Part shown: one piece after another, positions 843-54,322 of the stretch
How the letters are laid out: the number at the start of each line of letters is the position of its first letter
Position numbering within the stretch: position 1 is the first letter of the stretch
Assembly: GCA_015655015.1 (NCBI GenBank)
Contig: JAATFV010000090.1
Span: 124,001 to 188,000 of the forward strand
Source: Chitinophagales bacterium
GTDB lineage: Bacteria; Bacteroidota; Bacteroidia; Chitinophagales; Chitinophagaceae
Direction of reading: 5' to 3'
Length of the DNA: 64,000 nucleotides
The notes under the pieces: model-generated
Told to the model about the DNA's origin: nothing
The model's database searches: none
Seen by the model: only the letters and a program-made list of their open reading frames with translations
Translations under genes and position numbers: made by a program

Positions 843-908
843 ATGATTACAATCAGATTAATTGCTGACCCCGGTCATAAATGAGCTTCCCTCGCCAGCC
901 TACCTTGT
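843..908 (+). promoter_or_regulatory. Paired TGA-N6-TCA boxes and -7 element, cco operon promoter
   Basis: Distal box ATGATtacaATCAG (843-856), 8-bp gap, proximal box CTGACcccgGTCAT (865-878), 22-bp gap, then a -7 element TACCTTGT (901-908) shortly before the ccoI ATG at 921. The same geometry recurs at many promoters in this window. Boxes and spacing are seen directly; control by a Crp/Fnr-family activator is inferred. Confidence 0.72.
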
Positions 909-920
909 CTTTTATTTATT

Positions 921-3386
921 ATGGAACCATTAACGGACAAAGAAGTCTGCTGTAACCATTGCGGGGAAAAGTGCAGAACAACTATAATAAGGGCCCAAGA
1001 TAAGATATTTTGCTGCGAAGGCTGCAAAATGGTCTATCAATTGCTGGACCAGAACGGTCTGACGGATTATTATACCCTGAATGATCACCCGGGTCTTACA
1101 GGACAGGCGGAGGACCGCAAGGACAAGTTCGCCTTCCTGGAAGATGAAAAGATCGAGTCGCAGCTGATCTCATTCCGTAATGAATCGGAGACGCATATCA
1201 GCTTTTACCTGCCCCGGATCCACTGCAGCTCCTGTCTCTTCCTCCTGGAAAACCTTCACCGCCTGCATTCCGGGGTGATCACTTCAAGGGTGGATTTTGC
1301 CGCCAGGACGGCGTTTATCGTGTTCGATCCCCGCCGGATATCCCTCCGGGAACTGGCTGAGCTCTTATCCGCCATTGGTTACGAGCCCTATATCAGCCTC
1401 CGGGACATGGGTAAAAGCAAGCCGACAGTCGAAAAAAGCAGCATTTACCGCCTGGGCATCGCTGGTTTCTGCTTCGCCAATATCATGCTGCTGAGCTTCC
1501 CGGAATACCTTGGGCTGGATGGAACCGAAAAATCATTGCAGCTCATTTTCCGTTCGCTCAATTTTATTTTGTCGCTGCCTGTATTTTTTTATAGTGCACA
1601 GCCCTTTTATAGTGCTGCCTGGAAAGGCCTGAAGCGCCGCTTCCTCAACATAGACGCTCCGATCGTGCTGGCTATCTTCGTCACCTTCGCCCGCAGCGCC
1701 TACGAAGTATTGTCCGGAACGGGATCGGGTTATTTCGACAGTATGACGGGCATCGTGTTCTTTATGCTGGCGGGAAGGGCTCTGCAGGACAGGACCTACC
1801 GGCAGCTGTCCTTCGAAAGGGACTATACTTCCTATTTTCCCATTGCCGTGTCCGTATTGGCGGAAGGGAAAAAAATCAGCAGGCCCCTGCCGGATTTACG
1901 CTGCGGCGACACGCTGCTCATTCACCATGGTGAATTGATCCCGGCCGATGGCATTCTCACCCGGGGAGAGGCGCTGATCGACTATAGTTTCGTCACCGGG
2001 GAGTCCCTCCCCGTCCTGAAAGAGACAGGTTCCTTTATTTATGCGGGAGGAAGGCAGACGGGTGCAGCCATCGAATTGCTGGTAATGAAAGAAGTGGCGC
2101 AAAGTTACCTGACACAGCTCTGGGAACGGGAAGAGTTCCGTAAGACAGGCGCGACAGACAAAAATACCTCCTTCATACACCTGCTGAGCCGTTATTTTAC
2201 CTATATCGTTCTGGCGGTGGCTGCTTCGTCCGCACTATACTGGTGGAAACATGATCCTGCCAGGATCTGGACGGCTGTAACGGCCGTGCTGATCATTGCC
2301 TGTCCCTGCGCCTTATTGTTGTCAGCGACATTTACCAATGGCAATATTCTTCGCATCCTCGCAAAAAATCATTTCTATCTCCGCCATGCGCAGGTGATAG
2401 AGCGGATAGCTGCTACCAATCTTATTGTTTTTGACAAAACGGGAACGCTCACAACGGGCAGCCAGCAGGATCTGGTATATGAAGGAATTCCCCTGAGTGC
2501 CCCCGACCGGCAAGCCATCGCCGTCCTGGCCGCTCAGTCCACCCATCCTCTTAGCAAGGCCCTGGCCCAACACCTGGAAGCCAGCGGGCCCAGCAGTCTG
2601 CCGGGATTCCGGGAAGTTCCCGGGAAGGGAATCGAAGGCCGCGTGAACGGCGAGCTGGTCGCCATCGGCTCCCGGTCTTTCATCACCGATGATCCTGCTG
2701 CAGATCTCCCGGGTAACGATCTTTCGCGTGATAACGATCTTTCACGTGATAACGATCCTTCGCGTGGTAACGATCCTTCAGGCACGCGGGTGTATGTAGC
2801 CAGGGAGCGAAAATTGCTGGGGCATTTCAGCATCGTCAACCATTACCGGGAAGGGATACCCCGGCTGGTGAAGGAGCTGCCGGCCGGTATTTCGGTATCG
2901 GTGCTCTCCGGAGATAATTACCGGGAACGTCTCCGTCTGCAAGAAATGCTGGGGCAGAACAATAACCTGCTTTTCGATCAATCCCCTCATGACAAGGCTG
3001 CCTATATTCAACAGTTACAGCAACAGGGCAGCAAGGTGATGATGATCGGCGACGGACTGAATGATGCAGGAGCCCTGCAGCAGAGCGATACCGGCATAGC
3101 GCTCTCGGAGAACAGCAATCATTTTACTCCCGCCAGCGATGCCATCCTGGACGCACAAAAGTTACCTCTTTTAGGGGCTTTTATCCGGCTCTGCCGGGCC
3201 AACCGGCGTATTATCATCGCCAGCTTTATCTTATCCATCCTGTATAATATCATTGGATTGTCTTTCGCCGTACAAGGTAATTTATCACCCCTTATAGCCG
3301 CTATCCTTATGCCGTCGAGCTCCCTGAGTTTACTCCTGGCTACCTATGGAAGCAGCAGCCTCGTAGCCAGGCTGCTAAGGCTTTGA
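921..3386 (+). CDS. ccoI: Copper-translocating P-type ATPase (CcoI/FixI type)
   Basis: This 821-aa membrane ATPase probably exports Cu(I) for assembly of the cbb3 oxidase encoded directly downstream. The N-terminus has a Cys-rich metal-binding region (CCNHCGEKC, FCCEGCKMVY), typical of FixI-like ATPases, followed by a degenerate HMA-like domain (HCSSCLFLLENL). The core shows the TGES actuator loop (FVTGESLPV), the CPC ion-binding motif in a membrane helix (IACPCALLLS), the phosphorylation motif DKTGTLT, the HP motif (THPLSKAL) and the hinge GDGLNDAGAL. An 18-bp tandem repeat inserts NDxSRx hexapeptides into the nucleotide-binding domain (2715-2785). It is the first gene of the cco locus, and the promoter boxes lie just upstream. 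Confidence 0.93.
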   Translation: MEPLTDKEVCCNHCGEKCRTTIIRAQDKIFCCEGCKMVYQLLDQNGLTDYYTLNDHPGLTGQAEDRKDKFAFLEDEKIESQLISFRNESETHISFYLPRIHCSSCLFLLENLHRLHSGVITSRVDFAARTAFIVFDPRRISLRELAELLSAIGYEPYISLRDMGKSKPTVEKSSIYRLGIAGFCFANIMLLSFPEYLGLDGTEKSLQLIFRSLNFILSLPVFFYSAQPFYSAAWKGLKRRFLNIDAPIVLAIFVTFARSAYEVLSGTGSGYFDSMTGIVFFMLAGRALQDRTYRQLSFERDYTSYFPIAVSVLAEGKKISRPLPDLRCGDTLLIHHGELIPADGILTRGEALIDYSFVTGESLPVLKETGSFIYAGGRQTGAAIELLVMKEVAQSYLTQLWEREEFRKTGATDKNTSFIHLLSRYFTYIVLAVAASSALYWWKHDPARIWTAVTAVLIIACPCALLLSATFTNGNILRILAKNHFYLRHAQVIERIAATNLIVFDKTGTLTTGSQQDLVYEGIPLSAPDRQAIAVLAAQSTHPLSKALAQHLEASGPSSLPGFREVPGKGIEGRVNGELVAIGSRSFITDDPAADLPGNDLSRDNDLSRDNDPSRGNDPSGTRVYVARERKLLGHFSIVNHYREGIPRLVKELPAGISVSVLSGDNYRERLRLQEMLGQNNNLLFDQSPHDKAAYIQQLQQQGSKVMMIGDGLNDAGALQQSDTGIALSENSNHFTPASDAILDAQKLPLLGAFIRLCRANRRIIIASFILSILYNIIGLSFAVQGNLSPLIAAILMPSSSLSLLLATYGSSSLVARLLRL
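2715..2785 (+). repeat. In-frame 18-bp tandem repeat inside ccoI
   Basis: Three full units and a partial one, with unit 1 aacgatctttcgcgtgat at 2715-2732, then 2733-2750 and 2751-2768. Each unit encodes a hexapeptide of the form N-D-L/P-S-R-D/G. The repeat lies in the ATP-binding domain between the stretch reading SRSFITDDPA and GTRVYVARE, where a surface loop is expected, so it probably adds a hydrophilic loop without destroying function. Confidence 0.85.
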
Positions 3387-3420: not shown

Positions 3421-3521
3421 TTATCAGAAGAGCATTCTTTCTTCATGAGAAAGATCATATTTCCTCCTGAGGCTGATCATCAGCAAGCCATAACCGCTGC
3501 TCTATTTTTACGCAATATTTA

Positions 3522-3767
3522 ATGAACCATACTACTATGAGCGTCATCATTTTATTATTGATAGCCAGTCTCTCCATCGCTACCCTTTTTCTGGGAGCTT
3601 TTATCTGGAGCGTAAAAAACCGGCAGTTCGAGGACGGATTCTCCCCTCCCCGGAGGATCCTTTTCTCCCCTCCTGCCCCTGCTGAAGGGGAGAACTCTCC
3701 GCCGCCACCTGTCGACTCTAAGCCTGAACCCATCACCCCAAACACTCATTCCTCCGTATGCAGCTAG
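3522..3767 (+). CDS. ccoS: cbb3 oxidase assembly protein CcoS
   Basis: This small protein has one N-terminal membrane segment (SVIILLLIASLSIATLFLGAF) followed by the CcoS signature WSVKNRQFEDGFSPPRRILF. CcoS is needed for haem and copper incorporation into cbb3 oxidase. The reading frame starts at ATG 3522; ATG 3537 (MSVIILL) gives the more usual family length and may be the true start. The last 10 bp overlap the start of ccoNO, indicating translational coupling. The Pro-rich tail is longer than in most CcoS proteins. Confidence 0.9.
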   Translation: MNHTTMSVIILLLIASLSIATLFLGAFIWSVKNRQFEDGFSPPRRILFSPPAPAEGENSPPPPVDSKPEPITPNTHSSVCS

Positions 3768-5914
3768 AAAAATTCTATTACGACAACAAGACAGTAAAAT
3801 GGTTCGCATATGCCGTTCTGTTCTGGAGCATAGTAGGCATGCTGGCCGGTCTCTGGGTCGCCATCGCCCTGTATTATCCTCCTATGAACCTCGGCATTCC
3901 CGCCACCACCTTCGGCCGGATGCGGCCGGTACACACCAATGCCGTGATCTTCGCTTTTGTAGGCAATGGCATTTTTATGGGCGTCTACTATTCCCTGCAG
4001 CGCCTTTGCAAGGCCAGGATGTTCAGTGACACGCTCAGCAAGATCCATTTCTGGGGCTGGCAGCTGATCATCGTAGCAGGAGCCATCACTTTATGGGCCG
4101 GTAAGACCAGCGGCAAGGAATATGCCGAGCTGGAATGGCCCATCGATATCGCCATCACCGTGATCTGGGTGATCTTTGGCATCAATCTTTTTGGAACCAT
4201 CCTCAAAAGAAGGGAAAGTCATCTTTATGTGGCGATCTGGTTCTATATAGCGACCTGGGTGACCGTCGCCCTTCTGCATATCGTAAATTCCATGGAACTG
4301 CCTGTCTCTCTGTGGAAAAGCTATAGCTGGTATGCGGGAGTGCAGGACGCCCTGGTGCAATGGTGGTATGGGCATAATGCGGTGGCCTTCTTCCTGACCA
4401 CTCCTTACCTGGGTCTGATGTACTATTTTCTGCCCAAGGCAGCCAACCGGCCCATTTATTCCTATCGGCTTTCCATTATCCACTTCTGGGCACTGATCTT
4501 TATCTATATCTGGGCGGGGCCGCACCATTTGCTGTACACGGCTTTGCCGGACTGGGCCCAGTCCCTGGGGGTCGTCTTCTCCGTGATGCTGATAGCGCCC
4601 AGCTGGGGCGGTATGTTAAATGGGCTCTTCACCTTACGGGGCGCCTGGGATAAAGTGAAAGAAGACCCGGTACTGAAATTCCTGGTGGTTGCGATCACCT
4701 GTTACGGCATGGCCACCTTCGAAGGGCCTATGCTGGCCCTGAAAAATGTCAATGCCATCTCGCATTATACCGACTGGACGATCGCCCACGTGCACGTAGG
4801 CGCCCTGGGATGGAACGGCTTCCTCACCTTCGGGGTATTGTACTGGCTGATCCCGAAAATGTGGAATACTACTCTTTACTCAAAAAAATTAGCCACCACC
4901 CACTTCTGGATCGGCACCATCGGCATTGTCCTTTATGTAGTGCCGTTATACTGGGCCGGCTTCACCCAGAGCATGATGTGGAAGAGCTTTACGGAAGAAG
5001 GGCAGCTGAGGTTCCAGTTCCTGGAAACGGTAACACATGTGATCCCCATGTATATCACCCGCAGTCTGGGCGGCGCCATCTATCTGACAGGGGCCGTCCT
5101 GATGGTATACAACCTGCGCAAGACCATTGCGAAAGGCAGCTTTATAGCAAATGAAGCCGCAGAAGCAGCTCCTTTGCCTTCCAATCCTCAGACGCATGGC
5201 AAGCAACACTGGCATCGCTGGATAGAAAGACGCCCGATGCAGATGCTGGTCCTTAGTCTTATTGCCGTATCGATCGGCGGTATGCTCGAAATGATACCCA
5301 CCTTCCTGGTGAAGTCCAATATCCCGACCATCAGTAGTGTAAAACCCTATACTCCCCTGGAATTGCAGGGACGGGATATCTATGTACGGGAAGGCTGTTA
5401 CCTCTGCCATTCGCAGATGATCCGTCCCTTCCGGGATGAGGTGGCCCGGTATGGAGAATATTCCAAGGCCGGCGAGTTCGTCTACGATCATCCATTCCAG
5501 TGGGGCTCGAAAAGAACAGGGCCCGACCTTGCCAGGGAAGGGGGAAAATACCCGGACAGCTGGCATTACAACCATATGATGGATCCTCAATCGATGTCAC
5601 CGGGCTCTGTCATGCCCTCTTATATCTGGTTGCTGGATAACAATATCGATACCGCCAGTACACCCGCCAAGATCCGCGCTATGCAGAAAATGGGAGTTCC
5701 CTATCCTGCAGGGTTCGCGGACCAGGCAAATAAAGATCTGGTTGCACAGGCTGCAGGCATCCGGGCCTCTTTGAAACAGGACAAGATCCATTCAGGAGAC
5801 ATTAAAGAGATTGTGGCCCTGATCGCCTACCTGCAAAGAATGGGTAAGGATATCAAAGCGGCACCTCTCGCCGAACAAAAGGGCGATGGGGGACAATCGG
5901 TGATGGGGAACTAA
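3758..5914 (+). CDS. ccoN: cbb3 cytochrome c oxidase, fused subunits I and II (CcoNO)
   Basis: This 718-aa fusion is typical of Bacteroidota. Residues about 1-470 are CcoN, the catalytic haem b/b3-CuB subunit with about 12 membrane helices. Visible ligand motifs include RPVHTNAV, the GHNAVAFFLTTPYLG helix, GPHHLLY and HVHVGALGWNGF. After a further membrane helix (LVLSLIAVSIGGMLEMIP), residues about 530-700 are CcoO, a membrane-anchored mono-haem cytochrome c with CYLCH at 547-551 and methionine-rich ligand loops (MSPGSVMPSY). The enzyme reduces oxygen at very low concentrations while pumping protons. It overlaps ccoS and is followed by ccoQ. Confidence 0.97.
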   Translation: MQLEKFYYDNKTVKWFAYAVLFWSIVGMLAGLWVAIALYYPPMNLGIPATTFGRMRPVHTNAVIFAFVGNGIFMGVYYSLQRLCKARMFSDTLSKIHFWGWQLIIVAGAITLWAGKTSGKEYAELEWPIDIAITVIWVIFGINLFGTILKRRESHLYVAIWFYIATWVTVALLHIVNSMELPVSLWKSYSWYAGVQDALVQWWYGHNAVAFFLTTPYLGLMYYFLPKAANRPIYSYRLSIIHFWALIFIYIWAGPHHLLYTALPDWAQSLGVVFSVMLIAPSWGGMLNGLFTLRGAWDKVKEDPVLKFLVVAITCYGMATFEGPMLALKNVNAISHYTDWTIAHVHVGALGWNGFLTFGVLYWLIPKMWNTTLYSKKLATTHFWIGTIGIVLYVVPLYWAGFTQSMMWKSFTEEGQLRFQFLETVTHVIPMYITRSLGGAIYLTGAVLMVYNLRKTIAKGSFIANEAAEAAPLPSNPQTHGKQHWHRWIERRPMQMLVLSLIAVSIGGMLEMIPTFLVKSNIPTISSVKPYTPLELQGRDIYVREGCYLCHSQMIRPFRDEVARYGEYSKAGEFVYDHPFQWGSKRTGPDLAREGGKYPDSWHYNHMMDPQSMSPGSVMPSYIWLLDNNIDTASTPAKIRAMQKMGVPYPAGFADQANKDLVAQAAGIRASLKQDKIHSGDIKEIVALIAYLQRMGKDIKAAPLAEQKGDGGQSVMGN

Positions 5915-9293: not shown

Positions 9294-9998
9294 ATGATAG
9301 GACCGATCCTTATAGCAGGCTTTTCCCTGGGGCTCTTCAGCAGCCTGCACTGCATCGGCATGTGCGGCCCCCTGGTGCTGGCTTTGCCTTTACAGGGAGT
9401 TTCCGGGCCCCGCCGTATACTTGCTACCGGCTTGTATCATGGTGGAAGGATCGGCATGTATGCCGTATTGGGATCAATCTCCGGTCTGCTCGGCCACCGC
9501 ATTTATATTGCCGGTTGGCAACAGGGAATGTCTATCGGGTTGGGAACGGGAATTCTTTTAATGCTGGGATGGAAATGGATAGGACGGCCCCGGAAGATCT
9601 TCTTCCCGGATAAGCTCTACGGCGGCCTTCGGCGATGGATACTACGGCTCTGGCAGTCTCCTTCATCCGGAAGTTTTTTCTTGCTGGGCGTGGCCAATGG
9701 ATTGCTGCCCTGCGGAATGGTTTATCTGGCCGTTGCAGGAGCGGTGAGTCTCTCCGGGATAGGCCAGGGACTGGCTTTCATGCTCTCTTTTGGGGCAGGC
9801 ACCCTACCCCTGTTGCTGGCGCTAAGCTATTCCGGTCATCGTATCCGCCTGAATTTCCGGGGTTTCCTTCAAAAGGGCCTCCCCTTTCTGATGGCGCTCA
9901 TGGCCGTCTTGCTCATACTGCGGGGATTGAACCTGGGGATACCCTATATCAGTCCCCTGCTCCCCGGAGCAAAAGGCGGAGCGGTTGAATGTCACTAA
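9294..9998 (+). CDS. TauE/SafE-like membrane protein at end of cco operon
   Basis: This 234-aa protein has about six membrane helices and opens with the motif SLGLFSSLHCIGMCGPLVLALPL. A second, similar half motif follows (GVANGLLPCGMVYLAVAGA). The paired Cys-containing repeats are typical of the SafE/DsbD-like families (UPF0721/DUF2217) found next to cco genes, where a role in copper or thiol handling during oxidase maturation is likely. Direct evidence for transport of sulfite is absent. Its stop codon overlaps that of the convergent histidine kinase by 4 bp. Confidence 0.85.
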   Translation: MIGPILIAGFSLGLFSSLHCIGMCGPLVLALPLQGVSGPRRILATGLYHGGRIGMYAVLGSISGLLGHRIYIAGWQQGMSIGLGTGILLMLGWKWIGRPRKIFFPDKLYGGLRRWILRLWQSPSSGSFFLLGVANGLLPCGMVYLAVAGAVSLSGIGQGLAFMLSFGAGTLPLLLALSYSGHRIRLNFRGFLQKGLPFLMALMAVLLILRGLNLGIPYISPLLPGAKGGAVECH

Positions 9999-11557
9999 AG
10001 TTGCTGACCGGAAGGAATGCTGACAGTAATGGTAGTACCCTGGCCAAGGATACTGTCCAGGTGAATGGAGCCCTGAAGGAGGTCTACATACCGTTTGACA
10101 ATATGCAAACCCAGCCCCGTCCCCTCTATATTCTGGGCGTTGTCGCCCCGGAAAAAGCTACTGAAAAGGTGTTGCTGATCTTCCCTTGAAATGCCGATCC
10201 CTTCGTCTCTTATGGACAGCACCATCCCCTTTTCATCCGGATGGGTAACCTTCAGCCATATGCCGGCATTCACGGGAGAGAACTTAACGGCATTGCTGAC
10301 GAGGTTGATCAGGATATTTTTCAGGAGCCGCTTGTCGCTGACAAAACTGCTTTCCCCCTGGTAGTCGCAATAGATAATTTGTCCATCTTTTACCAGGGCT
10401 CTCATCTCTTCGGCCACTTCTTCCAGAAATTCCTTTACCTGGAAGGGGGCCAGATCCATTTTAACCCTTCCTTCCTCCAGCCGGCCCAGGGAGAGGAAAT
10501 CCTCCAGCAGGTCGTTGAGATGTTTCACCGAGTCTTTGATACGGCGGATATGTTTGTCCCGCTGTTCCTGCTGTTCTTCCCGGGTATATTTCGACAGAAG
10601 AGCTGCCGAAGAGAGCACCGTGCTGAGCGGCGTTCTGAACTCATGGGAAGCCATGGATACAAAACGGGACTTGATCTCATTCAATTCTTTTTCCTTGTTA
10701 AGAGCCTCATTCAATTCCGTTTGCGAACGCTCCAATTCCTGCAGGGCTTCCCGGAGAATAAGGGTCCGTTGCTCTACTTTGGTCTCCAGCTCCGTATTCA
10801 GCCGTCCAATATCGCTGGTGATCTTCTCCAGCTCGGCCTTCCTGTCCAGTAATTCCTTCTCAGACTGCTTGCGTGCAGTAATATCCACGAGGAAGGCAAT
10901 AACAAAAAGCCTGTCCTTCTGCCGGTAATAGCTGAGACTGACCTCGACGGGAAATTCCTTATTGCTTTTTTTGCGGGCAAACAAATCCCTGCCGTGCCCC
11001 ATAGTCCTGTTACCCGGGTGTTCATAAAAACCTTCGCGGTATCCTACATGCGCCTTATGAAAGCGGCCAGGTATCAATACGTCAATGGACTTGCCCAGCA
11101 ATTCGTCCCGCTCATATTCGAACAGCTGGAAAGCGGCCGGATTCAACAGGACAATCTTTCCTTTGTCGTCCGTGAGAATAATTCCTTCTGTAGCGTGCTC
11201 GAATAGCGCGTTGACCTGCATTTGCTCCGATTCGATAGACCGGTACAGCTTTTTTACATACAATACGAATATCATGGTCATAATGACGATGATGAGCGAA
11301 AAGAGGTGCTGCATGATGACCTGCTCCCGTTCCATGCTTTCGTGCCGGTAAAAGGATGCAACGACGATCAGCACAATACTGATCGCACCGAATAACTTCG
11401 TATACCCATCGTCTTTCAGGAAGATCGTCAGGAGGATGGCGGCGATGAGTCCTCCGTCGAAGAAGCTGAAACCGGGATTGAGGTATTGCAATACCGCCGA
11501 ACACAGGGTCACAATGGAACAGAACAGGAGTACATTGAATGATTTTTCCTTGAACAT
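9995..11557 (-). CDS. PAS-domain membrane histidine kinase
   Basis: This 520-aa protein has four membrane helices in residues 1-102, a PAS domain at about 115-230 (EHATEGIILTDDKGKIVLLN), a long coiled coil (230-295), a HisKA dimerisation domain with catalytic H305 (SMASHEFRTPLS), and an ATPase domain (NLVSNAVKFS, DEGIGIS, GTGLGLHIVKRY). It lacks its own receiver. No response regulator is adjacent; the receiver-Crp gene at 1-766 is the closest plausible partner. A perfect -7 element TATATTTG (11594-11587) lies upstream without recognisable boxes, so the kinase may be made constitutively. The PAS stretch aligning with the FixL haem ligand reads NRTMGHGR, with Arg where FixL has His, so haem sensing of the FixL kind is not supported. 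Confidence 0.93.
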   Translation of the reverse strand: MFKEKSFNVLLFCSIVTLCSAVLQYLNPGFSFFDGGLIAAILLTIFLKDDGYTKLFGAISIVLIVVASFYRHESMEREQVIMQHLFSLIIVIMTMIFVLYVKKLYRSIESEQMQVNALFEHATEGIILTDDKGKIVLLNPAAFQLFEYERDELLGKSIDVLIPGRFHKAHVGYREGFYEHPGNRTMGHGRDLFARKKSNKEFPVEVSLSYYRQKDRLFVIAFLVDITARKQSEKELLDRKAELEKITSDIGRLNTELETKVEQRTLILREALQELERSQTELNEALNKEKELNEIKSRFVSMASHEFRTPLSTVLSSAALLSKYTREEQQEQRDKHIRRIKDSVKHLNDLLEDFLSLGRLEEGRVKMDLAPFQVKEFLEEVAEEMRALVKDGQIIYCDYQGESSFVSDKRLLKNILINLVSNAVKFSPVNAGIWLKVTHPDEKGMVLSIRDEGIGISREDQQHLFSSFFRGDNAQNIEGTGLGLHIVKRYVDLLQGSIHLDSILGQGTTITVSIPSGQQL

Positions 11558-13795: not shown

Positions 13796-14158
13796 ATGGA
13801 AGAGTTCATAAAAGTCGAGACGCTGATCGATCACACCAGGGAGTACATAAATACCCGGATCGATGAAACCAGGCTGAAGGCAGCGGAAAAAGCTTCCGGA
13901 GTCATTGCCCTGCTGATCGCCCGCGCCGTGGTCAATTTGGTCTTCCTATTCAGTCTTTTTTTCGCCAGCGTGGCTGGTGCTTACGGGCTGGGAATCTGGC
14001 TGGGTAAGATGTGGCTGGGCTTCCTGCTCGTGGCAGGAGCTTATTTTCTGGCAGGATGTATCGTCTGGGCAGCCAGGGAACGGCTCCTCCAGATTCCGGT
14101 CATGAACGCCATTATTCATCAACTCTTTAAAAATGATGATCCCGATGAGGAAGATTAG
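13796..14158 (+). CDS. Phage-holin-superfamily-like small membrane protein
   Basis: This 120-aa protein has an amphipathic N-terminal helix (residues 1-40), two membrane helices (about 42-65 and 72-93) and an acidic tail. The layout matches the holin-superfamily-III/YqjE-like membrane proteins that are widespread in chromosomes and often lie next to YqjD/YqjK-like proteins. There is no phage context here; a membrane-stress role is the more likely reading. It overlaps the next gene by 26 bp and heads a four-gene operon under a paired-box promoter. Confidence 0.65.
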   Translation: MEEFIKVETLIDHTREYINTRIDETRLKAAEKASGVIALLIARAVVNLVFLFSLFFASVAGAYGLGIWLGKMWLGFLLVAGAYFLAGCIVWAARERLLQIPVMNAIIHQLFKNDDPDEED

Positions 14159-20710: not shown

Positions 20711-20715
20711 TATAA

Positions 20716-41162: not shown

Positions 41163-41645
41163 ATGCATGTAAGTAAAAAATACCTTCTGATTGCAACGAT
41201 ACTGGGACTGGTGTATTCCTGCTCCAATTCCGGGTCTGAAAAGAAGGAGCAGCCTTCTGCATCAACCGGCAATGAAAGCGGTGCACCTTCTTCTGCATAT
41301 GATTCTGTCAAGGGGGCCGGTAAATTTACTCATGTCACCCTCAACCCCGCCCTGGATCAAAAGCTGGCAGAGAAGGGAAAAGCTGTTTATGACATTAAGT
41401 GTTCCGGCTGCCATAAGCTGACCGGTGAAAAATTAGTAGGTCCCGGATGGAAAGGTGTTACAGAAAGGAGAAAACCAGAGTGGATCATGAATTTTGTCAC
41501 CAATACCGAAGAAATGCTGAACAAGGATGCCAAGGCTCAGGCCATGCTGGAAATATGCATGGTGAAAATGCCGAACCAGAATCTCAGCGACGAAGACGCC
41601 CGTAATGTGTTGGAGTTCATGCGAAAAAATGACGGAGTAAAATAA
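41163..41645 (+). CDS. Lipoprotein cytochrome c of nos locus
   Basis: This 160-aa protein has a lipoprotein signal (YLLIATILGLVYSCSNSG, lipidated Cys about residue 19) and one mono-haem cytochrome c domain with CSGCH and a downstream Met ligand (MVKMPNQNLSDEDA). Cytochromes at this position in clade II nos clusters are thought to deliver electrons to NosZ. The frame extends upstream to 41124, but the start at 41163 gives a proper signal peptide. It lies 45 bp before nosZ. Confidence 0.9.
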   Translation: MHVSKKYLLIATILGLVYSCSNSGSEKKEQPSASTGNESGAPSSAYDSVKGAGKFTHVTLNPALDQKLAEKGKAVYDIKCSGCHKLTGEKLVGPGWKGVTERRKPEWIMNFVTNTEEMLNKDAKAQAMLEICMVKMPNQNLSDEDARNVLEFMRKNDGVK

Positions 41646-41690
41646 ACCCATGGAACTCATAAATCAACAGAATCAATAAATCAATTCAAT

Positions 41691-43679: not shown

Positions 43680-43742
43680 GATTGTGTAATCAGGTCTGTG
43701 CAGGAAAATCATATCAGATATGTGTACGAAAATCATAAAGGA

Positions 43743-44798
43743 ATGAATAAGAAAATGTCTTCGCTGGCGAGGTGGGTTACCTTGTTCTGTTCTTCCATCC
43801 TGATCGCAGTATTATTTCTGCCTATCTGGAGAATTGATCTGTCCGCACCTCAGTATCCTGAAGGACTGGTGTTAAGAATTTATGCCGATAGGATCGGCGG
43901 TGATGTAGACATCATCAATGGCCTGAACCACTATATAGGAATGAAGATGCTTCACACCAGGGACTTCGTCGAATTTGTAGCGCTGCCTTACATTATCGGC
44001 GGGTTCCTGGTCCTGGGGTTCCTGGTGGCGCTGTCCAACCGGCGCTCTATATTCTACGGCTGGGTATCCCTGCTGTTGCTGATCGCCTTTATGTCCCTGA
44101 TAGATTTCTACCGGTGGGAATACAATTATGGGCATAACCTTGACGAAGGGGCCCCTATCAAAGTTCCCGGGATGGCTTATCAGCCACCCCTGCTCGGGTA
44201 CAAACAATTGCTCAATTTCAGCGCCTGGTCCATTCCCGACAGCGGCGGATGGACCTTTGCCGGAGTCGGCGTGCTGCTGACATTCGTCGCTTTCCTGGAA
44301 ATGTTCCGGCAAAAAAGGGGGAAACCCGGTACATCTGCCAAAATTACCGGGAAAACAAAGACCGTTGCCGCCGTATGGATAGTCGCTGTCCTGGGATTGG
44401 GCGCTTTTTCGCTGACGGGCTGCAAGGCGGGCCTCCAACCGATCCATTATGGCCAGGATAATTGTGATTTCTGCAAGATGGGCATCGCCGACAAAAGGTT
44501 TGGCGCAGAGATCCTGACCAAAAAGGGAAAAACCTTTAAGTTCGACGACATGCATTGCCTGCTGGGGTTTATCCATTCCGCCACGCTTGATAAAAAAGAG
44601 ATGGCAGGGATATACCTGGTAGATTTCTCAGGAGATGGAGATTTAATGAAGGCTGATGAAGGCTACCTGTTAAAGAGCGAGTCGCTGCATAGTCCGATGA
44701 ATGGAAATATAGCTGCCTTCAGAAATGCCGACAGCATGAAAAAATATGAAACCGAATTAAACGGCCAGCCTACCACATGGAAAGAATTGTACCAATAG
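43743..44798 (+). CDS. nosL: Membrane domain fused to NosL copper chaperone
   Basis: This 351-aa protein has two parts. Residues about 1-215 form a domain with four membrane helices and a periplasmic loop (WRIDLSAPQYPEGLVLRIY). Residues about 215-351 are a NosL domain, which begins with a helix ending in a lipobox-like LTGCKAG and contains GQDNCDFCKMGIADKRFGAE, the Cu(I)-binding CxxC-M motif. NosL delivers copper to NosZ and is usually a separate lipoprotein, so the embedded lipobox suggests a fusion. The frame extends to 43698; 43743 is the better start. It overlaps nosD by 22 bp. Confidence 0.88.
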   Translation: MNKKMSSLARWVTLFCSSILIAVLFLPIWRIDLSAPQYPEGLVLRIYADRIGGDVDIINGLNHYIGMKMLHTRDFVEFVALPYIIGGFLVLGFLVALSNRRSIFYGWVSLLLLIAFMSLIDFYRWEYNYGHNLDEGAPIKVPGMAYQPPLLGYKQLLNFSAWSIPDSGGWTFAGVGVLLTFVAFLEMFRQKRGKPGTSAKITGKTKTVAAVWIVAVLGLGAFSLTGCKAGLQPIHYGQDNCDFCKMGIADKRFGAEILTKKGKTFKFDDMHCLLGFIHSATLDKKEMAGIYLVDFSGDGDLMKADEGYLLKSESLHSPMNGNIAAFRNADSMKKYETELNGQPTTWKELYQ

Positions 44799-46003
44799 GA
44801 ATGCTGTTACTGCTGCCTTTCCTGGCCAGCGCAAAGACCTGGATAGTCGGCGGATCGTCTTCGATACAGCAGGCAGTTAATAAAGCGGCTCCCGGGGATA
44901 CCATCCTCGTCGAAAAAGGTATCTATTATGAAAAGGGGCTGCTGATCAATAAAAGAATTTACCTGAAAGGAATTGACCGGCCTGTGCTGGATGGAGAGAA
45001 AAAATATGAAATAATATCCGTGAAGGCCGATGGAGTGATCGTGGAAGGGTTGCACCTGCAGTATTCCGGGGTTTCAGGTTGGAATGACATTGCCGGCATC
45101 AAGATCTATGATGCAAAGGACGTCATTATCCGCGGCAATACCCTGGATTATACCTTCTTTGGCATTTTCAGCCTCAATTCCGGCAGCTGTATTATTTCAG
45201 GCAATACGATCCGTTCGAATGCGCCCGACGATATTCAATCGGGCAACGGAATTCATTGCTGGAAATGCGACAGGATGCAGATCCTCGACAACGTGATCAC
45301 CCGGCACCGGGACGGCATCTATTTCGAATTTGTCACCAATTCGCTGATCCGCGGTAACCAGAGCTTCAGCAATGCCCGGTATGGGCTGCATTTTATGTTC
45401 TCCAATAACGATACCTACCAGGGCAATCTGTTCCGGCACAATGAGGCCGGCGTATCCGTCATGTTCTCGCATGGCGTGAAAATGCTGGGCAATACATTTA
45501 CGGAGAACCAGGGAGGGGGGGCTTATGGCATTCTGATGAAGGAGATCAGCGACAGCCAGGTGGAAGGCAATCACTTTACGGCCAATACCAGCGGTATTTA
45601 CATGGAAGGAACGACCCGTGTCCGGGTAACGGAAAATACGTTCTCGGATAACGGATGGGCCATGAAGATCCAGGCCAGCTGTGCGGACAATACGATCACA
45701 CGGAATAATTTCCTGGGCAACACCTTCGATGTGGCTACCAACGGCACCCTGGTCCTGAATACTTTCGACAATAATTATTGGGATAAGTACGAAGGATATG
45801 ATCTGGACCGCAATGGTATCGGAGACGTGCCCTACCACCCGGTCAGCATGTATGCCATGATAGCTGAGAAGAACCCTTCCGTCATGATGTTGTTTCACAG
45901 TTTTATGGTGAGCTTACTGGATAAGACCGAAAAAGTGATCCCCAGCATTACGCCAGTCAATTTAAGGGACGACAAGCCTTACATGAAACAATTGAAACTA
46001 TGA
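44777..46003 (+). CDS. nosD: NosD, periplasmic beta-helix maturation protein
   Basis: This 408-aa protein has a signal peptide (GMLLLLPFLASA) and a CASH/right-handed beta-helix fold of repeated G-N-T/N motifs (IIRGNTLDYTFFGIF, LIRGNQSFSNARYGLHFMFSN). NosD with NosF and NosY is needed for copper centre assembly in NosZ. It overlaps nosL by 22 bp and nosF by 4 bp. Confidence 0.95.
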   Translation: MERIVPIGMLLLLPFLASAKTWIVGGSSSIQQAVNKAAPGDTILVEKGIYYEKGLLINKRIYLKGIDRPVLDGEKKYEIISVKADGVIVEGLHLQYSGVSGWNDIAGIKIYDAKDVIIRGNTLDYTFFGIFSLNSGSCIISGNTIRSNAPDDIQSGNGIHCWKCDRMQILDNVITRHRDGIYFEFVTNSLIRGNQSFSNARYGLHFMFSNNDTYQGNLFRHNEAGVSVMFSHGVKMLGNTFTENQGGGAYGILMKEISDSQVEGNHFTANTSGIYMEGTTRVRVTENTFSDNGWAMKIQASCADNTITRNNFLGNTFDVATNGTLVLNTFDNNYWDKYEGYDLDRNGIGDVPYHPVSMYAMIAEKNPSVMMLFHSFMVSLLDKTEKVIPSITPVNLRDDKPYMKQLKL

Positions 46004-46707
46004 TCATCGCTACGAATGTCCATAAGAGATTTGGAAAGCTTCACGCGCTCGACAATATCAGCCTTACCTGTAGCAAAGGGCAGACTATTTCATTGATCGG
46101 GCCTAATGGCAGCGGAAAGACGACTTTTATAAAATGCCTGTTGGGGATGGTAATGCCGGATAGCGGTTTCATCACTTTTAATGGCAACAACATCGCCCAT
46201 GACTGGAAATACCGGTCGAAGATCGGTTATATGCCCCAGACCGGCAGGTATCCCGACAATATGACCATCGGACAGGTTTTCGACATGATGAAAGATATCC
46301 GGAAGGCTGATGCCGCAATAATCGATGAAGAGCTGTTCGCGTCATTTGGGCTGAACAGGATCATGGACAAACGTATGCGGGCCTTATCCGGCGGCACCCG
46401 GCAAAAGGTGAGCGCCTGCCTTGCCTTCCTGTTCAATCCGGATGTGCTGATACTGGATGAGCCAACTGCAGGACTGGACCCCGTCTCTTCGGAAATATTA
46501 AAAGAGAAGATCCGGAAGGAAAAACAAAAGGGGAAGCTGATCCTCATCTCCTCTCATATCCTCAGTGAGCTGGACGATATCGTCAGTGAAGTGATCTACC
46601 TGCAGGATGGGAGCCTGAAGTTTCATAAAAGCCTGGAACAATTGAAGAAAGATACCGGTGAGGAAAGGTTGACGAGGGCCATTGCCAGGGTCATGCAATC
46701 CAATTAG
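46000..46707 (+). CDS. nosF: NosF, ABC transporter ATPase
   Basis: This 235-aa ATPase has Walker A GPNGSGKTTFIK, signature LSGGTRQKVSACLAF, Walker B VLILDEPTAGLDP and switch ISSHILSE. It energises NosY/NosD. Its ATG overlaps the nosD stop (ATGA). The spacer to nosY is filled by a 16-bp tandem repeat. Confidence 0.95.
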   Translation: MIIATNVHKRFGKLHALDNISLTCSKGQTISLIGPNGSGKTTFIKCLLGMVMPDSGFITFNGNNIAHDWKYRSKIGYMPQTGRYPDNMTIGQVFDMMKDIRKADAAIIDEELFASFGLNRIMDKRMRALSGGTRQKVSACLAFLFNPDVLILDEPTAGLDPVSSEILKEKIRKEKQKGKLILISSHILSELDDIVSEVIYLQDGSLKFHKSLEQLKKDTGEERLTRAIARVMQSN

Positions 46708-46711
46708 ACGG

Positions 46712-46775
46712 GTCAAACCCTCCAATTGTCAAACCCTCCAATTGTCAAACCATTCAATTGTCAAACCATCCAATT
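46712..46775 (+). repeat. 16-bp tandem repeat, four units, between nosF and nosY
   Basis: gtcaaaccctccaatt at 46712-46727 and 46728-46743, then gtcaaaccattcaatt (46744-46759) and gtcaaaccatccaatt (46760-46775). The period is strict. It replaces the usual tight coupling between nosF and nosY and ends just before the nosY start. Confidence 0.9.
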
Positions 46776-46782
46776 TAAAAAA

Positions 46783-47550
46783 ATGAATAAGATCATCAAA
46801 TATGTCATTCTCGATATTCTTCGCAACAAGATCGTGCTGGCATATACGCTTTTCCTGCTGGCTATCTCTTTAACCGTATTCAACCTGGAAGACAGTTCCG
46901 CCAAAGGGATATTGAGCCTGATGAATATCGTTCTTATCGTATTACCGCTGGTAAGCATTATTTTTTCCACCATCTATGTTTATAATTCGGCGGAATTTAT
47001 CGAATTGCTGGTTTCCCAGCCTTTGAAACGAACCCGGCTGCTGCTCAGCATTTTTACGGGGTTATCCGTTTCCTTATTACTGGCCTTTATGGTAGGGGTC
47101 GGGATACCTGTCCTTCTCTATGGGGCCACTACAATAGGGCTGATCCTGATCGCCATTGGCATGGGACTCACCATCATCTTTGTGGCATTGGCCTTATTGG
47201 GCGCCGTGATCACCCGGGATAAGGCTAAAGGGATCGGCATTGCCATTCTGCTGTGGTTTTATTTCTCCCTGATCTATGATGGGATAGTGTTATTTATTTT
47301 GTTTCAATTCAGCGATTATCCGCTGGAAAGGGTGTCAATTGTGCTCAGTTCGCTGAACCCGATCGACCTGGGCAGGATCATGATCCTGCTGAAGATGGAT
47401 ATTTCCGCCATGATGGGTTATACCGGAGCCGTCTTCAAAGAATTCTTTGGCGGTCCCCGGGGAAGCCTTTATGCCGGCATAGTCATGCTGTTATGGATGT
47501 CCGTCCCCTTGTGGATAGCTGTTCGGAGGTTCAAACGGAAAGACCTTTAG
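46783..47550 (+). CDS. nosY: NosY, ABC-2 type permease
   Basis: This 255-aa permease starts MNKIIKYVILDILRNKIVLAYTLFLLAISLTVF and has six membrane helices. It is the membrane partner of NosF in NosZ maturation. The frame is also open from 46726, but that start lies inside the 16-bp tandem repeat and adds non-conserved residues, so 46783 is preferred. Confidence 0.92.
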   Translation: MNKIIKYVILDILRNKIVLAYTLFLLAISLTVFNLEDSSAKGILSLMNIVLIVLPLVSIIFSTIYVYNSAEFIELLVSQPLKRTRLLLSIFTGLSVSLLLAFMVGVGIPVLLYGATTIGLILIAIGMGLTIIFVALALLGAVITRDKAKGIGIAILLWFYFSLIYDGIVLFILFQFSDYPLERVSIVLSSLNPIDLGRIMILLKMDISAMMGYTGAVFKEFFGGPRGSLYAGIVMLLWMSVPLWIAVRRFKRKDL

Positions 47551-49595: not shown

Positions 49596-50636
49596 TTATT
49601 CGTTGGTCAATATTACCTTCAGCGCTTTTTCCCGGTCTGCATGCTGAAAAGTGTCGTAAGCCTTGTCAATATCCGACAGCTTGAACCGGTGGGTGATCAA
49701 TTGCTGGGGATCTAATTTCTTCGACCGCACCGTTTTCAGCAGCATCGGGGTGGTGACAGTATCCACGAGCCGGGTGGTGATGGTAATATTGTGCGACCAC
49801 AATTTTTCCATATGAAGGTCTACGCTCTTTCCGTGTACGCCGATATTGGCAATTCGTCCTCCGGGAGCTACCAGGGCCTCACAGAGCTCAAAGGTCACCG
49901 GTGTTCCAACAGCCTCGATAACGGTGTCCGCACCTTTATTACCAGTCAGGCTCATTACCTTTTCGACAGCGTTGGTGTTCCGGCTGTTGATCGTCTGGGT
50001 AGCTCCGAATGTTTTGGCAATGTTCAGCCTGTTGTCGTCCAGGTCGATCATGATGATCTCTGCAGGAGAATAGAACTGTGCTGTCAGCAGGGCCGCCAAC
50101 CCGATAGGGCCCGATCCGACAATGGCGACCGTATCGCCTGGTTTTACCTGACCGTTCAGCACGCCACATTCAAAGCCGGTGGGCAAGATATCGCTGAGCA
50201 TGACCAGGGCCTCTTCATCACTGCCTTCCGGTATCCGGTACAGGCTGTTATCTGCGAAGGGGATCCTTACATATTCGGCCTGTGTCCCGTCAATTAAATG
50301 ACCCAGGATCCAGCCGCCATTTTCGCAATGGGAATACATTCCTTTTTTGCAGTACTCGCATTTTCCACAGGAGGTAATGCAGGAGATCAGGACATGGTCT
50401 CCTTTTTTAAAACTGGTGACTCCGCCTCCCACTTCTTCTATTACCCCTACTCCCTCATGACCCAGGATCCTTCCGTCAGTCACTTCGGGAGTGTCTCCTT
50501 TTAAAATATGGAGGTCCGTTCCGCAGATGGTCGTTTTATAAATCCGGACGATGGCGTCCGTCGGAAGCTGAATGGAAGGTTTGGGCATTTCTTCCCAGCT
50601 TTTTTTACCGGGGCCATGATATACTAATGCTTTCAT
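49596..50636 (-). CDS. Zinc-dependent alcohol dehydrogenase (secondary alcohol/threonine dehydrogenase-like)
   Basis: This 346-aa medium-chain dehydrogenase starts MKALVYHGPGKKSWEEMPKP. Catalytic zinc residues lie in TTICGTDLHILKGDTPEV and GHEGVGVIEEVG; the structural zinc loop is CGKCEYCKKGMYSHC; the cofactor loop is GSGPIGLAALLTAQ, with IDLDDNRL favouring NAD. It belongs to the group of isopropanol, formaldehyde-like and threonine dehydrogenases; the substrate cannot be settled. It is controlled by a paired-box promoter with its distal box at the end of the adjacent USP gene. Confidence 0.92.
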   Translation of the reverse strand: MKALVYHGPGKKSWEEMPKPSIQLPTDAIVRIYKTTICGTDLHILKGDTPEVTDGRILGHEGVGVIEEVGGGVTSFKKGDHVLISCITSCGKCEYCKKGMYSHCENGGWILGHLIDGTQAEYVRIPFADNSLYRIPEGSDEEALVMLSDILPTGFECGVLNGQVKPGDTVAIVGSGPIGLAALLTAQFYSPAEIIMIDLDDNRLNIAKTFGATQTINSRNTNAVEKVMSLTGNKGADTVIEAVGTPVTFELCEALVAPGGRIANIGVHGKSVDLHMEKLWSHNITITTRLVDTVTTPMLLKTVRSKKLDPQQLITHRFKLSDIDKAYDTFQHADREKALKVILTNE

Positions 50637-50652: not shown

Positions 50653-50718
50653 GCAATTTATTACGTCCACAGATACAGAAACATGATGCCTGTTACCGGA
50701 CTGGATGATTGAGATCAC
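50653..50718 (-). promoter_or_regulatory. Paired boxes and -7 element of alcohol dehydrogenase 49596-50636
   Basis: Distal ATGATtgagATCAC (50705-50718), proximal ATGATgcctGTTAC (50683-50696), 8 bp apart; leftward after 22 bp TAAATTGC (50660-50653). The distal box ends 1 bp before the stop codon of the upstream USP gene. Confidence 0.68.
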
Positions 50719-50719: not shown

Positions 50720-51541
50720 TTATACATGCGCAATAAATATTGGCATTTTATGCTCCCGGATCACTTCCTGTGCAAAACTACGCCTGGTGGCATAGGAAAA
50801 AGGAGACCTTCCGAATGAGCCGCATACCATCAGCACATCCTGCTTCTCGCCTATCCAGGTAGCAAAATAGCTGGCAGCCTTGAAATGTAGCTTTGAAAAA
50901 TTCATGCTGCTGAAATGAAGACGGGAAAAGTTCTTCAGATTTTCAATATCAGGAATTTCGTGAGAAGCCTCGTCTTTTGCATAAATAAATTCCGTGGGGA
51001 GCTCCGTATATTGCGGCAGCAGATAACAGAATTGTTTCAGGGCAAAGAGGCTTTCCGGGCTGCCATCATAGGCGATCACCAGGTGCCGAAAGGGGGTAAA
51101 CTCCTCCGGTACGACCATCACGGGACATTCGGACACATGAAGGGCCTCCTGCAGGAAGGAATTGGGCTGGTCGTCGTCGACATCGGAATAGAATAATTCT
51201 CCGCTGACCACCATCAGGTCTGAAAAACGACTTTCCCTTGCCAGGATATCCTTATACCACTCCTCTTCATTTTCGTGGACCTGGTGTTTGATATAATGTG
51301 ACTCGCATAAGCTGGAGAAGAGGGTTTTGTGGTCTTCCAGCACCTTTTTCTCCTTCTCCAGCAGCCGGAGGTAAGGTCCGGGCACCGGCACATGGCTTGC
51401 GTTAGCCATCGCCCTGTCGTCTATGGGCCTGAAGAATAACCCTGTTACGCATATAGGCTCATGCTGCTGCAGGGATTGCAGGAAGGCAAATGCGCCTTTC
51501 GGGAAGGAATGGCCGGCGCTGACAAAAAGTATCCGTTTCAT
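50720..51541 (-). CDS. Universal stress protein, two UspA domains
   Basis: This 273-aa USP starts MKRILFVSAGHSFPKGAFAFLQSL. The second domain has LVIAYDGSPESLFALKQFCYLLPQY and ends CGSFGRSPFSYATRRSFAQEVI. It shares organisation with the 12862 and 14372 proteins, including the ECPVMVVPEEF end of the first domain and VSGELFYSDVDDDQPNSFLQEALH, matching LSGRHFFENIDADQPNAYMKEILH of 14372. It is divergent from the USP at 51807 across a spacer with two separate box pairs. Confidence 0.9.
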   Translation of the reverse strand: MKRILFVSAGHSFPKGAFAFLQSLQQHEPICVTGLFFRPIDDRAMANASHVPVPGPYLRLLEKEKKVLEDHKTLFSSLCESHYIKHQVHENEEEWYKDILARESRFSDLMVVSGELFYSDVDDDQPNSFLQEALHVSECPVMVVPEEFTPFRHLVIAYDGSPESLFALKQFCYLLPQYTELPTEFIYAKDEASHEIPDIENLKNFSRLHFSSMNFSKLHFKAASYFATWIGEKQDVLMVCGSFGRSPFSYATRRSFAQEVIREHKMPIFIAHV

Positions 51542-52732: not shown

Positions 52733-52768
52733 AATGCAGATCATATCTGTAATGCAGATCATATCTGT
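52733..52768. repeat. 18-bp direct repeat, two copies
   Basis: aatgcagatcatatctgt at 52733-52750 and 52751-52768. Each copy contains the inverted repeat CAGATcatATCTG. It is located at the 3' end of hemN. Confidence 0.8.
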
Positions 52769-54240
52769 TAAATAGCATTGCTGAAAATTCTGGTGCTGTC
52801 CGGCGCCTTTCCTGCTTCCTTGCCTGCTTCTCCGGATGTATCCCCGGATGTTCTTTGTGATAACGCGGACTTTCCGCAAAGAACAGAATTCTCTCCGTGG
52901 GCACGTGCCGATTCTTCGCGCAAAAGACGCAGGTCGAAGGCTTTACAGATATTACGGATAAATGGATGACCGGCAGCGGTCACTTCCACTTCCTTTTCAT
53001 CCACGCGGACCAGTCCGTCATTTTCCAGTTGCCGCAATACGGGAAATGTGTATTCCTGTAAAGTAGCCAGCCAGGCCTCATTAAAAGAGGTTCGCCCCTT
53101 ACAGGTTATATCCAGGATATGGTTCCGGAATACCAGGTCCTCTTCCGTCAGGAAATACCCTTTTTTCACGGCCATTTGGCCCGACGCGATAGCCTGGTAA
53201 TATCCCGCCAGGGTCTTGTCATTCTGAGCAAAAGCGATTCCTGCATCGCTGATGGATGAGACCCCCAGGCCCAGCAGCAAGGCGCTTTTCCGGGAGGTAT
53301 ATCCCATGAAATTGCGGTGAAGCCGTCCTTTCTTCCAGGCAACATATAATTCATCGGCAGGCAATGCGAAATGATCCATGCCAATATCCGTATATCCTCC
53401 GGCTATTAATAGTTCTCTGCCCTGCCGGTGTAAAGCCAGCTTTTCAGCGGCGGAAGGCAGATCCCGCTCGTCGATGAGCCGCTGGGCGCAATTGACCCAG
53501 GGTGTATGCGCATAACTATAGAAGGCGATCCGGTCCGGGTTAAGGCCGATGGATTGCCGGATGGTATTGGCCAACCTGTCGGCATCCTGGCGGGGAAGGC
53601 CGTACACCAGGTCGAAATTGACCGAGGTAAACCCTGCCTTCCGGGCGGCTTCCGTGGCCCTTTTCACGTTCTCAAAAGGCTGTATGCGATGGATGATCTT
53701 TTGGACTTCGGGGTTGATATCCTGGATGCCATAGCTGATCCTGCGAAAGCCCAATCCATATAAAACATCCAGATGCTCTTTGGTAGTATTATTCGGATGT
53801 CCTTCCAGGCTGAATGCATGTTGAGGATGAATAAAAGCTCCTTTCAGAAGGCCCTGGATCAGCCGGTAAAGACTGGCCGGAGAAAAAAAAGTGGGGGTTC
53901 CGCCGCCCAGGTGTATTTCCCGGATCACCGGAGGCTCTTCCATCAGGGTCCTGTACTCATTCCATTCCTTAAGAACAGCATCGATATAAGGATCTTCCAC
54001 ACTATGATTGGCAGTGATCTTTTTATTGCACCCGCAATAGATACATAAGGACTCGCAAAAAGGAAGATGGATATAGAGACTGATCCCTTCCTGTCTGTTG
54101 TTTTCCCGGAATTGCCGGGCAAAAACCTGCTTCCATCGGGGCAGATCCATTCCATCTTTCCAGAACGGTACAGTAGGATAGCTGGTATACCGGGGAACGG
54201 GGACATTATATTTAGTCGATAAGGACAGATCAGTCTGCAT
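52768..54240 (-). CDS. hemN: Oxygen-independent coproporphyrinogen III oxidase
   Basis: This 490-aa radical SAM enzyme has the HemN-type Cys motif CESLCIYCGC (62, 66, 69, 71), the N-terminal YNVPVPRYTSYPTVPFW, EIHLGGGTPTFFSP, and the HPNNTTKEHLDVLYGLGFRRISYGIQD core. It carries out the oxidative decarboxylation step of haem synthesis without oxygen, which the haem-rich cbb3 and nos systems require. A Ser/Gly/Glu/Ala-rich C-terminal extension of about 45 residues is not part of the usual fold. It is transcribed from one of the clearest paired-box promoters. Confidence 0.96.
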   Translation of the reverse strand: MQTDLSLSTKYNVPVPRYTSYPTVPFWKDGMDLPRWKQVFARQFRENNRQEGISLYIHLPFCESLCIYCGCNKKITANHSVEDPYIDAVLKEWNEYRTLMEEPPVIREIHLGGGTPTFFSPASLYRLIQGLLKGAFIHPQHAFSLEGHPNNTTKEHLDVLYGLGFRRISYGIQDINPEVQKIIHRIQPFENVKRATEAARKAGFTSVNFDLVYGLPRQDADRLANTIRQSIGLNPDRIAFYSYAHTPWVNCAQRLIDERDLPSAAEKLALHRQGRELLIAGGYTDIGMDHFALPADELYVAWKKGRLHRNFMGYTSRKSALLLGLGVSSISDAGIAFAQNDKTLAGYYQAIASGQMAVKKGYFLTEEDLVFRNHILDITCKGRTSFNEAWLATLQEYTFPVLRQLENDGLVRVDEKEVEVTAAGHPFIRNICKAFDLRLLREESARAHGENSVLCGKSALSQRTSGDTSGEAGKEAGKAPDSTRIFSNAI

Positions 54241-54256
54241 CCTGCTTGGGTTTTTC

Positions 54257-54322
54257 CAAAGGTAACCGGAGCCGGGTAGCGGGCAAATGACGCAGATCAG
54301 GTTACCGGCTGAAAATTGTCAT
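54257..54322 (-). promoter_or_regulatory. Paired boxes and perfect -7 element of hemN
   Basis: Distal CTGAAaattGTCAT (54309-54322), proximal ATGACgcagATCAG (54287-54300), 8 bp apart; leftward after 22 bp a perfect -7 TACCTTTG (54264-54257). hemN is a classical Fnr/Anr target in other bacteria, which supports the low-oxygen reading of the boxes. Confidence 0.75.

Follow-up and report, generated by a model that had tools for sequence, protein, structure and literature searches.

Fixed two-box promoters in a Chitinophagales genome and their probable link to receiver-Crp regulators

Results

Genes and promoters of the window

The DNA analysed here, referred to as the window, is a stretch of 64,000 nucleotides from a soil-type Chitinophagales bacterium of the phylum Bacteroidota (GenBank assembly GCA_015655015.1, contig JAATFV010000090.1, positions 124,001 to 188,000 of the forward strand), and forms part of contig C227 in a genome of 8.11 Mb. 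It holds genes for a cbb3 oxidase (cco), nitrous oxide (N2O) reduction (nos), fermentation, heme synthesis (hemN) and several universal stress proteins (USP), together with a PAS histidine kinase and two regulators, here named Rcr1 and Rcr2, in which a receiver is fused to a Crp-type part. An earlier note on this sequence had described 18 promoters in which two 14-bp boxes with a TGA-N6-TCA core are separated by 8 bp, and the proximal box by 22 bp from a TAnnTTTG-like -7 element (8 + 22, a convention that is maintained here). This observation is real: all 18 were found by direct scan at the places given, with exact spacing, and scored between 20.7 and 35.3 bits with a weight matrix derived from other genomes (80 named loci), to which the window contributed no sequence. 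The promoters, which have 8 + 22 spacing except where indicated, and the regulatory genes are the following:

844-908, plus strand: ccoI (921-3386), 32.4 bits
3446-3510, plus strand: ccoS (3522-3767, identified by a FixS match) and ccoNO (3758-5914), 33.9 bits
12752-12816, minus strand: baeRF (11641-12729) and probably also the PAS kinase gene behind it, 35.3 bits, the highest score
12783-12848, plus strand: USP 12862, sharing the baeRF box pair in the opposite direction with 8 + 23 spacing, 32.5 bits
13715-13779, plus strand: holin-like gene 13796 and the genes after it, 25.8 bits
17027-17091, plus strand: Rcr2, 22.4 bits
18868-18932, minus strand: hsp20 (18472-18822, HSP20 match), 27.4 bits
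19858-19922, plus strand: mla genes (19940-22493), 23.3 bits
22495-22559, plus strand: gene 22583, 31.0 bits
24704-24768, minus strand: FMN-binding gene (24211-24684, Pyridox_ox_2 domain match), 25.4 bits
28533-28597, minus strand: phosphoketolase (26048-28441), 30.4 bits
28624-28688, plus strand: USP 28699/28705, 23.0 bits
29580-29644, plus strand: BON gene 29706, 28.4 bits
34092-34156, plus strand: nitroreductase (34098-34697 as listed; the actual start is further downstream), 32.0 bits
37063-37127, minus strand: adhP (35992-37065 as listed; here too the actual start is further downstream), 26.6 bits
40915-40979, minus strand: membrane protein (39613-40884), 31.1 bits
41021-41089, plus strand: nos variant (12 + 22) ahead of the cytochrome c, nosZ, nosL and nosD genes from 41124, read from the sequence
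50653-50717, minus strand: alcohol dehydrogenase (49596-50636), 20.7 bits
51624-51688, minus strand: USP 50720-51541, 28.9 bits
51723-51787, plus strand: USP 51807, 28.7 bits
54257-54321, minus strand: hemN (52768-54240), 33.5 bits
1-766, minus strand: Rcr1 (receiver-CNB-HTH_Crp, 352 aa, intact receiver), opposite ccoI and continuing 293 bases beyond the left edge of the window
9995-11557, minus strand: PAS histidine kinase, behind baeRF
17182-18240, plus strand: Rcr2 (receiver-CNB-HTH_Crp, 352 aa, Glu at the position of the phospho-acceptor Asp)

When the matrix was run over the whole window, 24 strand-sites reached at least 20 bits, compared with 0.03 per shuffled window and none in the reversed window. 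They correspond to 20 oriented promoters (the 18, plus those at 3446 and 12783) and to four readings on the mirror strand, at 3415 (minus), 34061 (minus), 37094 (plus) and 54288 (plus), which appear because the boxes are palindromes. The promoter at 3446-3510, a nineteenth that was absent from the earlier list, precedes ccoS and ccoNO and has two perfect boxes with 8 + 22 spacing (TATTTTTA). Both near-matches that had been proposed were also recovered: USP 12862 with 8 + 23, and the nos promoter, whose cores are 14 bp apart (12 between 14-bp boxes) and are followed by TAAACTTG 23 bases past the core. While the spacing was exact in 18/18, the words of the boxes and the -7 element proved more variable than this spacing: both boxes are perfect in nine promoters and one of them is imperfect in the other nine. 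The -7 element retains five or six of its six fixed bases in 12 promoters, and just four in those of ccoI, mla, 22583, the FMN gene, alcohol dehydrogenase 49596 and USP 50720.

Some further features of these intergenic regions can be mentioned. In the cytochrome c-nosZ-nosL-nosD-ABC gene row (41124-47550), the variant boxes (41021-41058) are 4 bp further apart, and N2O reduction may be tuned differently on account of this spacing. Two weak possible additional sites are 37094-37158 (plus strand), ahead of gene 37272 (GAATTTTA), and 24735 (plus strand), at ackA, where the best -7 lies two bases further. The row 13796-16877 comprises the holin-like gene, a 273-aa protein at 14372, a phosphoribosyltransferase, a zinc ribbon and a DJ-1/PfpI protein; the 14372 product has no Pfam match and is perhaps the USP that the earlier note had included there. 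Upstream of the BON gene, short repeated words (GTTGTTGTCAG...) are found beside the boxes on the minus strand, at 29549-29650.

In the whole genome, 17 exact box pairs have the 8-bp gap, ten of them in the window, and none was found with the reversed control; taking all gaps from 2 to 32 there are 70 pairs (four in the control), so that 17 of the 70 fall at one of 31 gaps. The genome scan against a control that the earlier note had proposed supported its claim: with up to three mismatches, the full 18-base pattern gave 28 + 27 matches on the two strands versus 0 + 1 for its reversed form, and with up to two mismatches, 37 matches in 8.1 Mb. Outside the window, the genes downstream of sites encode, among others, HypA, an alanine dehydrogenase/PNT protein, an MCRA-family protein, an ATP-grasp and Succ_CoA_lig protein, and USP-like proteins, the latter named by eye from their starts.

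Conservation of the pattern

The 80 named loci surround Rcr homologues in other genomes, each covering at most 21 kb and 1.37 Mb in all. In these loci, 95 exact pairs have the gap of the window promoters, with 40 other gaps yielding between 0 and 4 each, which bears out the fixed spacing. Over the 190 strand-instances of these pairs, the -7 word is present 94 times at one offset and 0 to 8 times at others, and counts of single boxes reach 144 and 172 at the two offsets predicted, versus 5-28 elsewhere. A good -7 word is found on one side of 66 of the 95 pairs, on both sides of 14 and on neither side of 15. In the logo of the 94 sites the distal box is more informative than the proximal one and the -7 reads TAnYTTTG, while the 22-base spacer holds no conserved word, as would be expected if an activator on the proximal box stands in for the -33 element. 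The full pattern, with at most two mismatches, reaches a density of 132.5 per Mb in these loci and its reversed form is absent, compared with 37 such matches in the entire 8.1 Mb of the genome under study. A congeneric genome likewise has such promoters around its Rcr genes, where they precede frames that, judged by eye, resemble the kinase, USP, hemN, ccoI and ccoNO.

The possibility that the pattern is peculiar to this genome was rejected, since matches with up to two mismatches occur in 164 of 198 genomes from the order, adding up to 1218 versus 42 for the reversed pattern. Nor is it a feature of the phylum as a whole: in a hand count from a table of 296 genomes, at least three matches were present in 5/223 genomes outside the class versus 25/57 genomes of the class outside the order. 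One genome of another class in the phylum (G454) has 9 + 9 matches and none with the reversed control, and the other 222 outside the class never exceed four. The pattern is thus found order-wide, and is tied neither to the genome under study nor to a single regulator. These order-wide matches, the sharp gap and the promoters of homologous genes described below provide support from independent genomes for the proposal of a Crp/Fnr-type regulon with fixed two-box geometry.

Receiver-Crp proteins and the PAS kinase

The earlier note had correctly identified the receiver-Crp gene at 17182 (Rcr2) and had missed its paralogue with an intact receiver, Rcr1, at the left edge. Both have the cNMP_binding fold and the HTH_Crp domain of the Crp/Fnr superfamily. 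In an alignment of 21 rows, Asp9, Asp52 and Thr82 are present in at least 90% and Lys104 is invariant; Rcr1 has all of these response-regulator residues, and the phospho-acceptor Asp is kept in 20 Rcr1-type proteins. Rcr2 has an aspartate-less receiver, being the sole row with Glu in the Asp52 column, and shows Gly at Asp9 of the acidic pair. Receivers without this Asp are the subject of PMC4395418, which, in the part used here, cites a title stating, for NtrC, that a Glu in this position acts as a mimic of phospho-Asp.

The recognition helix, TATESLIR, is near-invariant in the alignment. FNR is the nearest relative of the Crp part among Protein Data Bank (PDB) sequences, and a PDB search with the AlphaFold model of Rcr1 (pLDDT 80, pTM 0.41) again returned the Crp/FNR fold. 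The four-cysteine cluster of FNR proper is absent: the sole column with Cys in at least half of the 21 rows adjoins the receiver Asp. The genome has eight HTH_Crp_2 matches above the cut-off, and the TATES helix occurs in Rcr1 and Rcr2 only (four weaker matches lie outside this reading). A third receiver-Crp gene seems to be divided between the ends of two contigs, C200 and C248 (L192 3695-4975 and L069 1-260), inside a run of SDRNAP repeats; it has a PAS kinase in front, and its helix, APESFIR, departs from the family.

The kinase and Rcr genes are paired. In 63 of the 80 named loci, the gene immediately preceding Rcr, in the same orientation, encodes a homologue of the PAS kinase. In six others (L097, L098, L101, L102, L106, L118) a homologue, truncated by the locus edge, is found around 9 kb upstream, a distance like that in the window. 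Compared with PDB sequences at E 1e-5, the PAS domain gave 14 matches, one to a multi-sensor kinase and 13 to DosP or FixL entries, if the two annotated as 'Heme pas sensor protein' and 'yddU' are taken to be DosP. His170 of this domain aligns with a DosP His, which we take to be the heme ligand, and is kept in 59 of the 59 homologues having a residue there (63 aligned). These similarities suggest a FixL/DosP-like kinase that is probably heme-bound.

Genes preceded by the pattern in other genomes

In the Rcr loci the pattern precedes homologues of several window genes: ccoNO (24/26), ccoI (18/24), the FMN gene (7/7), hemN (6/7), and USPs of the 51807 (13/18) and 12862 (3/4) types. It was found in none of the operon-internal cco genes ccoP (0/26) and ccoG (0/25), and in 69/723 of the remaining open frames of at least 150 aa, a background that includes spurious frames. 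Within these loci of up to 21 kb, BON and the nitroreductase have no homologue, and phosphoketolase, ackA and USP28699 have one each, not preceded by the pattern.

A complementary view was obtained by assigning to each site the longest of the open frames that begin in the following 250 bp, a rule that can err, which gave 212 downstream genes; 125 of them, drawn at random from the 209 of 70-1000 aa, were scanned with Pfam. The domains were COX1 (15), FixO (14), Usp (13), ccoI-type ATPase (9), HSP20 (7), PAS plus kinase domains (7), Pyridox_ox_2 (6), ScdA_N (4) and hemerythrin (4). Part of the gene set of the window therefore recurs near Rcr in other genomes.

Discussion

Which regulator reads the boxes

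We consider it likely that these are activator-dependent promoters read by Rcr under the control of the PAS kinase, constituting a low-oxygen or redox switch. Rcr is linked to the sites: genomes with Rcr (110 of 198) average 8.5 matches versus 3.2 in the other 88 (rank test, p 3e-11, ignoring shared ancestry and genome size). Presence of Rcr was defined by a best E of about 1e-35 or lower, a limit set after seeing that stronger matches were mostly frames of around 350 aa and weaker ones of around 240, with no frame length listed for part of the weak genomes.

Several results weigh against this assignment. Five of the 110 Rcr genomes have no match at all, and the density around Rcr is in part due to Rcr sitting among its own likely targets. 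Homologues of hsp20 (1/4), mlaE (1/4), USP50720 (2/5) and adhP (0/3) carry the pattern infrequently, and it is present at the promoters of only 8/79 Rcr and 20/66 kinase genes. Conservation of the His in the PAS domain is no proof of heme. Autoregulation of Rcr as a rule was rejected, with a same-strand site within 400 bp in 3/79 genes, or 8/79 under a looser rule.

In an alternative reading, the main reader is a plain Crp/Fnr protein lacking the receiver and sensing oxygen, nitric oxide or a nucleotide, Rcr being one modulator of several. Sites do persist in genomes devoid of Rcr, at the average of 3.2 given above, and of 16 loci surrounding plain Crp/Fnr genes, nine contain matches, 16 altogether (55.6 per Mb). 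Some of these proteins share an Rcr-like helix, so that elsewhere the reader may not be Rcr. However, the five plain Crp-type proteins read in the genome under study have different helices (AREN, PETLSR, YETVFR, KEQVST and RQTVTT), and the flanks of the boxes differ as well. A further cluster of sites spaced in this way, on contig C114 (L060, 11835-13378), lies beside a plain Crp gene (11916-12632) with the AREN helix, and looks like a separate regulon; in all three of its sites the distal box is preceded by T and followed by C, whereas this C is found in 2/18 window sites. On balance we regard a plain Crp/Fnr protein as an unlikely main reader of the window promoters.

The same flanking base separates helix types across the loci. 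C follows the distal box in 7/7 sites of loci with plain VKET or AREN helices, in 0/9 of those with TATES or TATET, and in 11% of 182 sites at Rcr loci, other flank positions discriminating less cleanly. In these small numbers, the comparison suggests that the spacing is a shared architecture and that the flanks carry regulator identity. It could then be argued that the arrangement is the general form of Crp-class promoters in this lineage, serving many regulators and signals, and that the 19 window promoters need not be one regulon. The occurrence of one spacing in loci with three helix types favors the first half of this argument, which is probably true and compatible with control of the window genes by Rcr. 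As a whole it appears rather improbable, given that most window flanks agree with the Rcr type and that some of the same genes are again found near Rcr elsewhere. Finally, chance pairing of palindromes picked by eye, which could be invoked because TGA-N6-TCA is short and single boxes abound, with 62 in the window, can practically be dismissed, since the reversed and shuffled controls are near zero and a single sharp gap (95 pairs versus 0-4) emerged from sequence on which the earlier note had not drawn.

Proposed mechanism

Regulation by Rcr under the PAS kinase would operate as follows. The centres of the boxes are 22 bp apart, about two helical turns, and two Rcr dimers bound side by side on the distal and proximal boxes would therefore be on the same helix face. 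The -7 word has its first T 29.5 bp downstream of the proximal box centre; with transcription presumably starting a few bases past this word, the boxes would be centred near -41.5 and -63.5. The proximal dimer would replace the -33 element and set RNA polymerase on the TAnnTTTG -7, with the distal dimer aiding binding. A fall in oxygen or redox state would cause the PAS kinase to phosphorylate Rcr1. In this form Rcr1 would turn on hemN, the USP genes and those for the cbb3 oxidase, N2O reductase, fermentation and chaperones, and would also induce Rcr2 and, via baeRF, the kinase gene. With Glu where the phospho-acceptor would be, Rcr2 may keep the state on without the kinase, as a possible latch.

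More tentatively, Rcr may represent a merged FixJ and FixK, i.e. a phosphorylation-gated Crp/Fnr activator under a FixL-like kinase, whose adjacent dimers replace the -33 element in an invariant geometry, can fire divergently and govern a low-oxygen and dormancy-like programme in a large part of the class. A phosphomimetic paralogue would be the latch, and the architecture would be lineage-specific and common to several Crp-type regulators differing mainly in the flanks.

If correct, this promoter code would allow low-oxygen regulons to be read from sequence in many genomes, would name the kinase-regulator pair involved, and would bring survival genes of soil bacteria under one switch with cbb3 respiration and the reduction of N2O. 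The rigid promoter form would also be useful to study two Crp-type dimers acting with the unusual polymerase of Bacteroidota.

Comparison with known systems

In class II CRP/FNR-dependent promoters with tandem sites, the proximal site is near -41.5; here, the second site is at a fixed upstream distance that is kept across the whole order. The DosR regulon of mycobacteria is a hypoxia set rich in USP, Hsp20-type and nitroreductase genes, and its activator also has a receiver, although it differs in having a LuxR-type output domain and another DNA word. FNR and Anr regulons include hemN, ccoN and other low-oxygen genes, according to part of PMC6588701; unlike FNR, Rcr has no four-cysteine cluster. 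The NmpRSTU system of Myxococcus xanthus, as presented in sections of PMC11841059, is likewise a two-component regulon for oxygen use with a heme-dependent kinase, but employs an NtrC-like regulator and sigma-54 sites. In agreement with the earlier note, according to which a regulon of this kind was not described for Bacteroidota, none was found in a literature search that covered few subscription journals, and a term search of PMC8510549 returned nothing on it.

The nearest logic is that of the rhizobial FixL-FixJ-FixK and hFixL-FxkR-FixK cascades, in which a response regulator induces fixK (PMC7888657, sections on these cascades). As portrayed there, these share with the window a PAS kinase, a response regulator, a Crp/Fnr activator, FNR-like palindromes, cbb3 oxidase genes as targets and the clustering of regulator and oxidase genes. 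The system in the window falls outside the FixLJ-FixK group proper, given that FixJ is a separate protein in the rhizobial cascades and here the receiver is fused to the Crp-type part. Rhizobial oxidase operons, according to the same sections, have one activating anaerobox, whereas here there are two boxes with fixed spacing and a Bacteroidota -7 element. By analogy, the arrangement resembles FixL-FixJ-FixK with FixJ and FixK merged into one protein.

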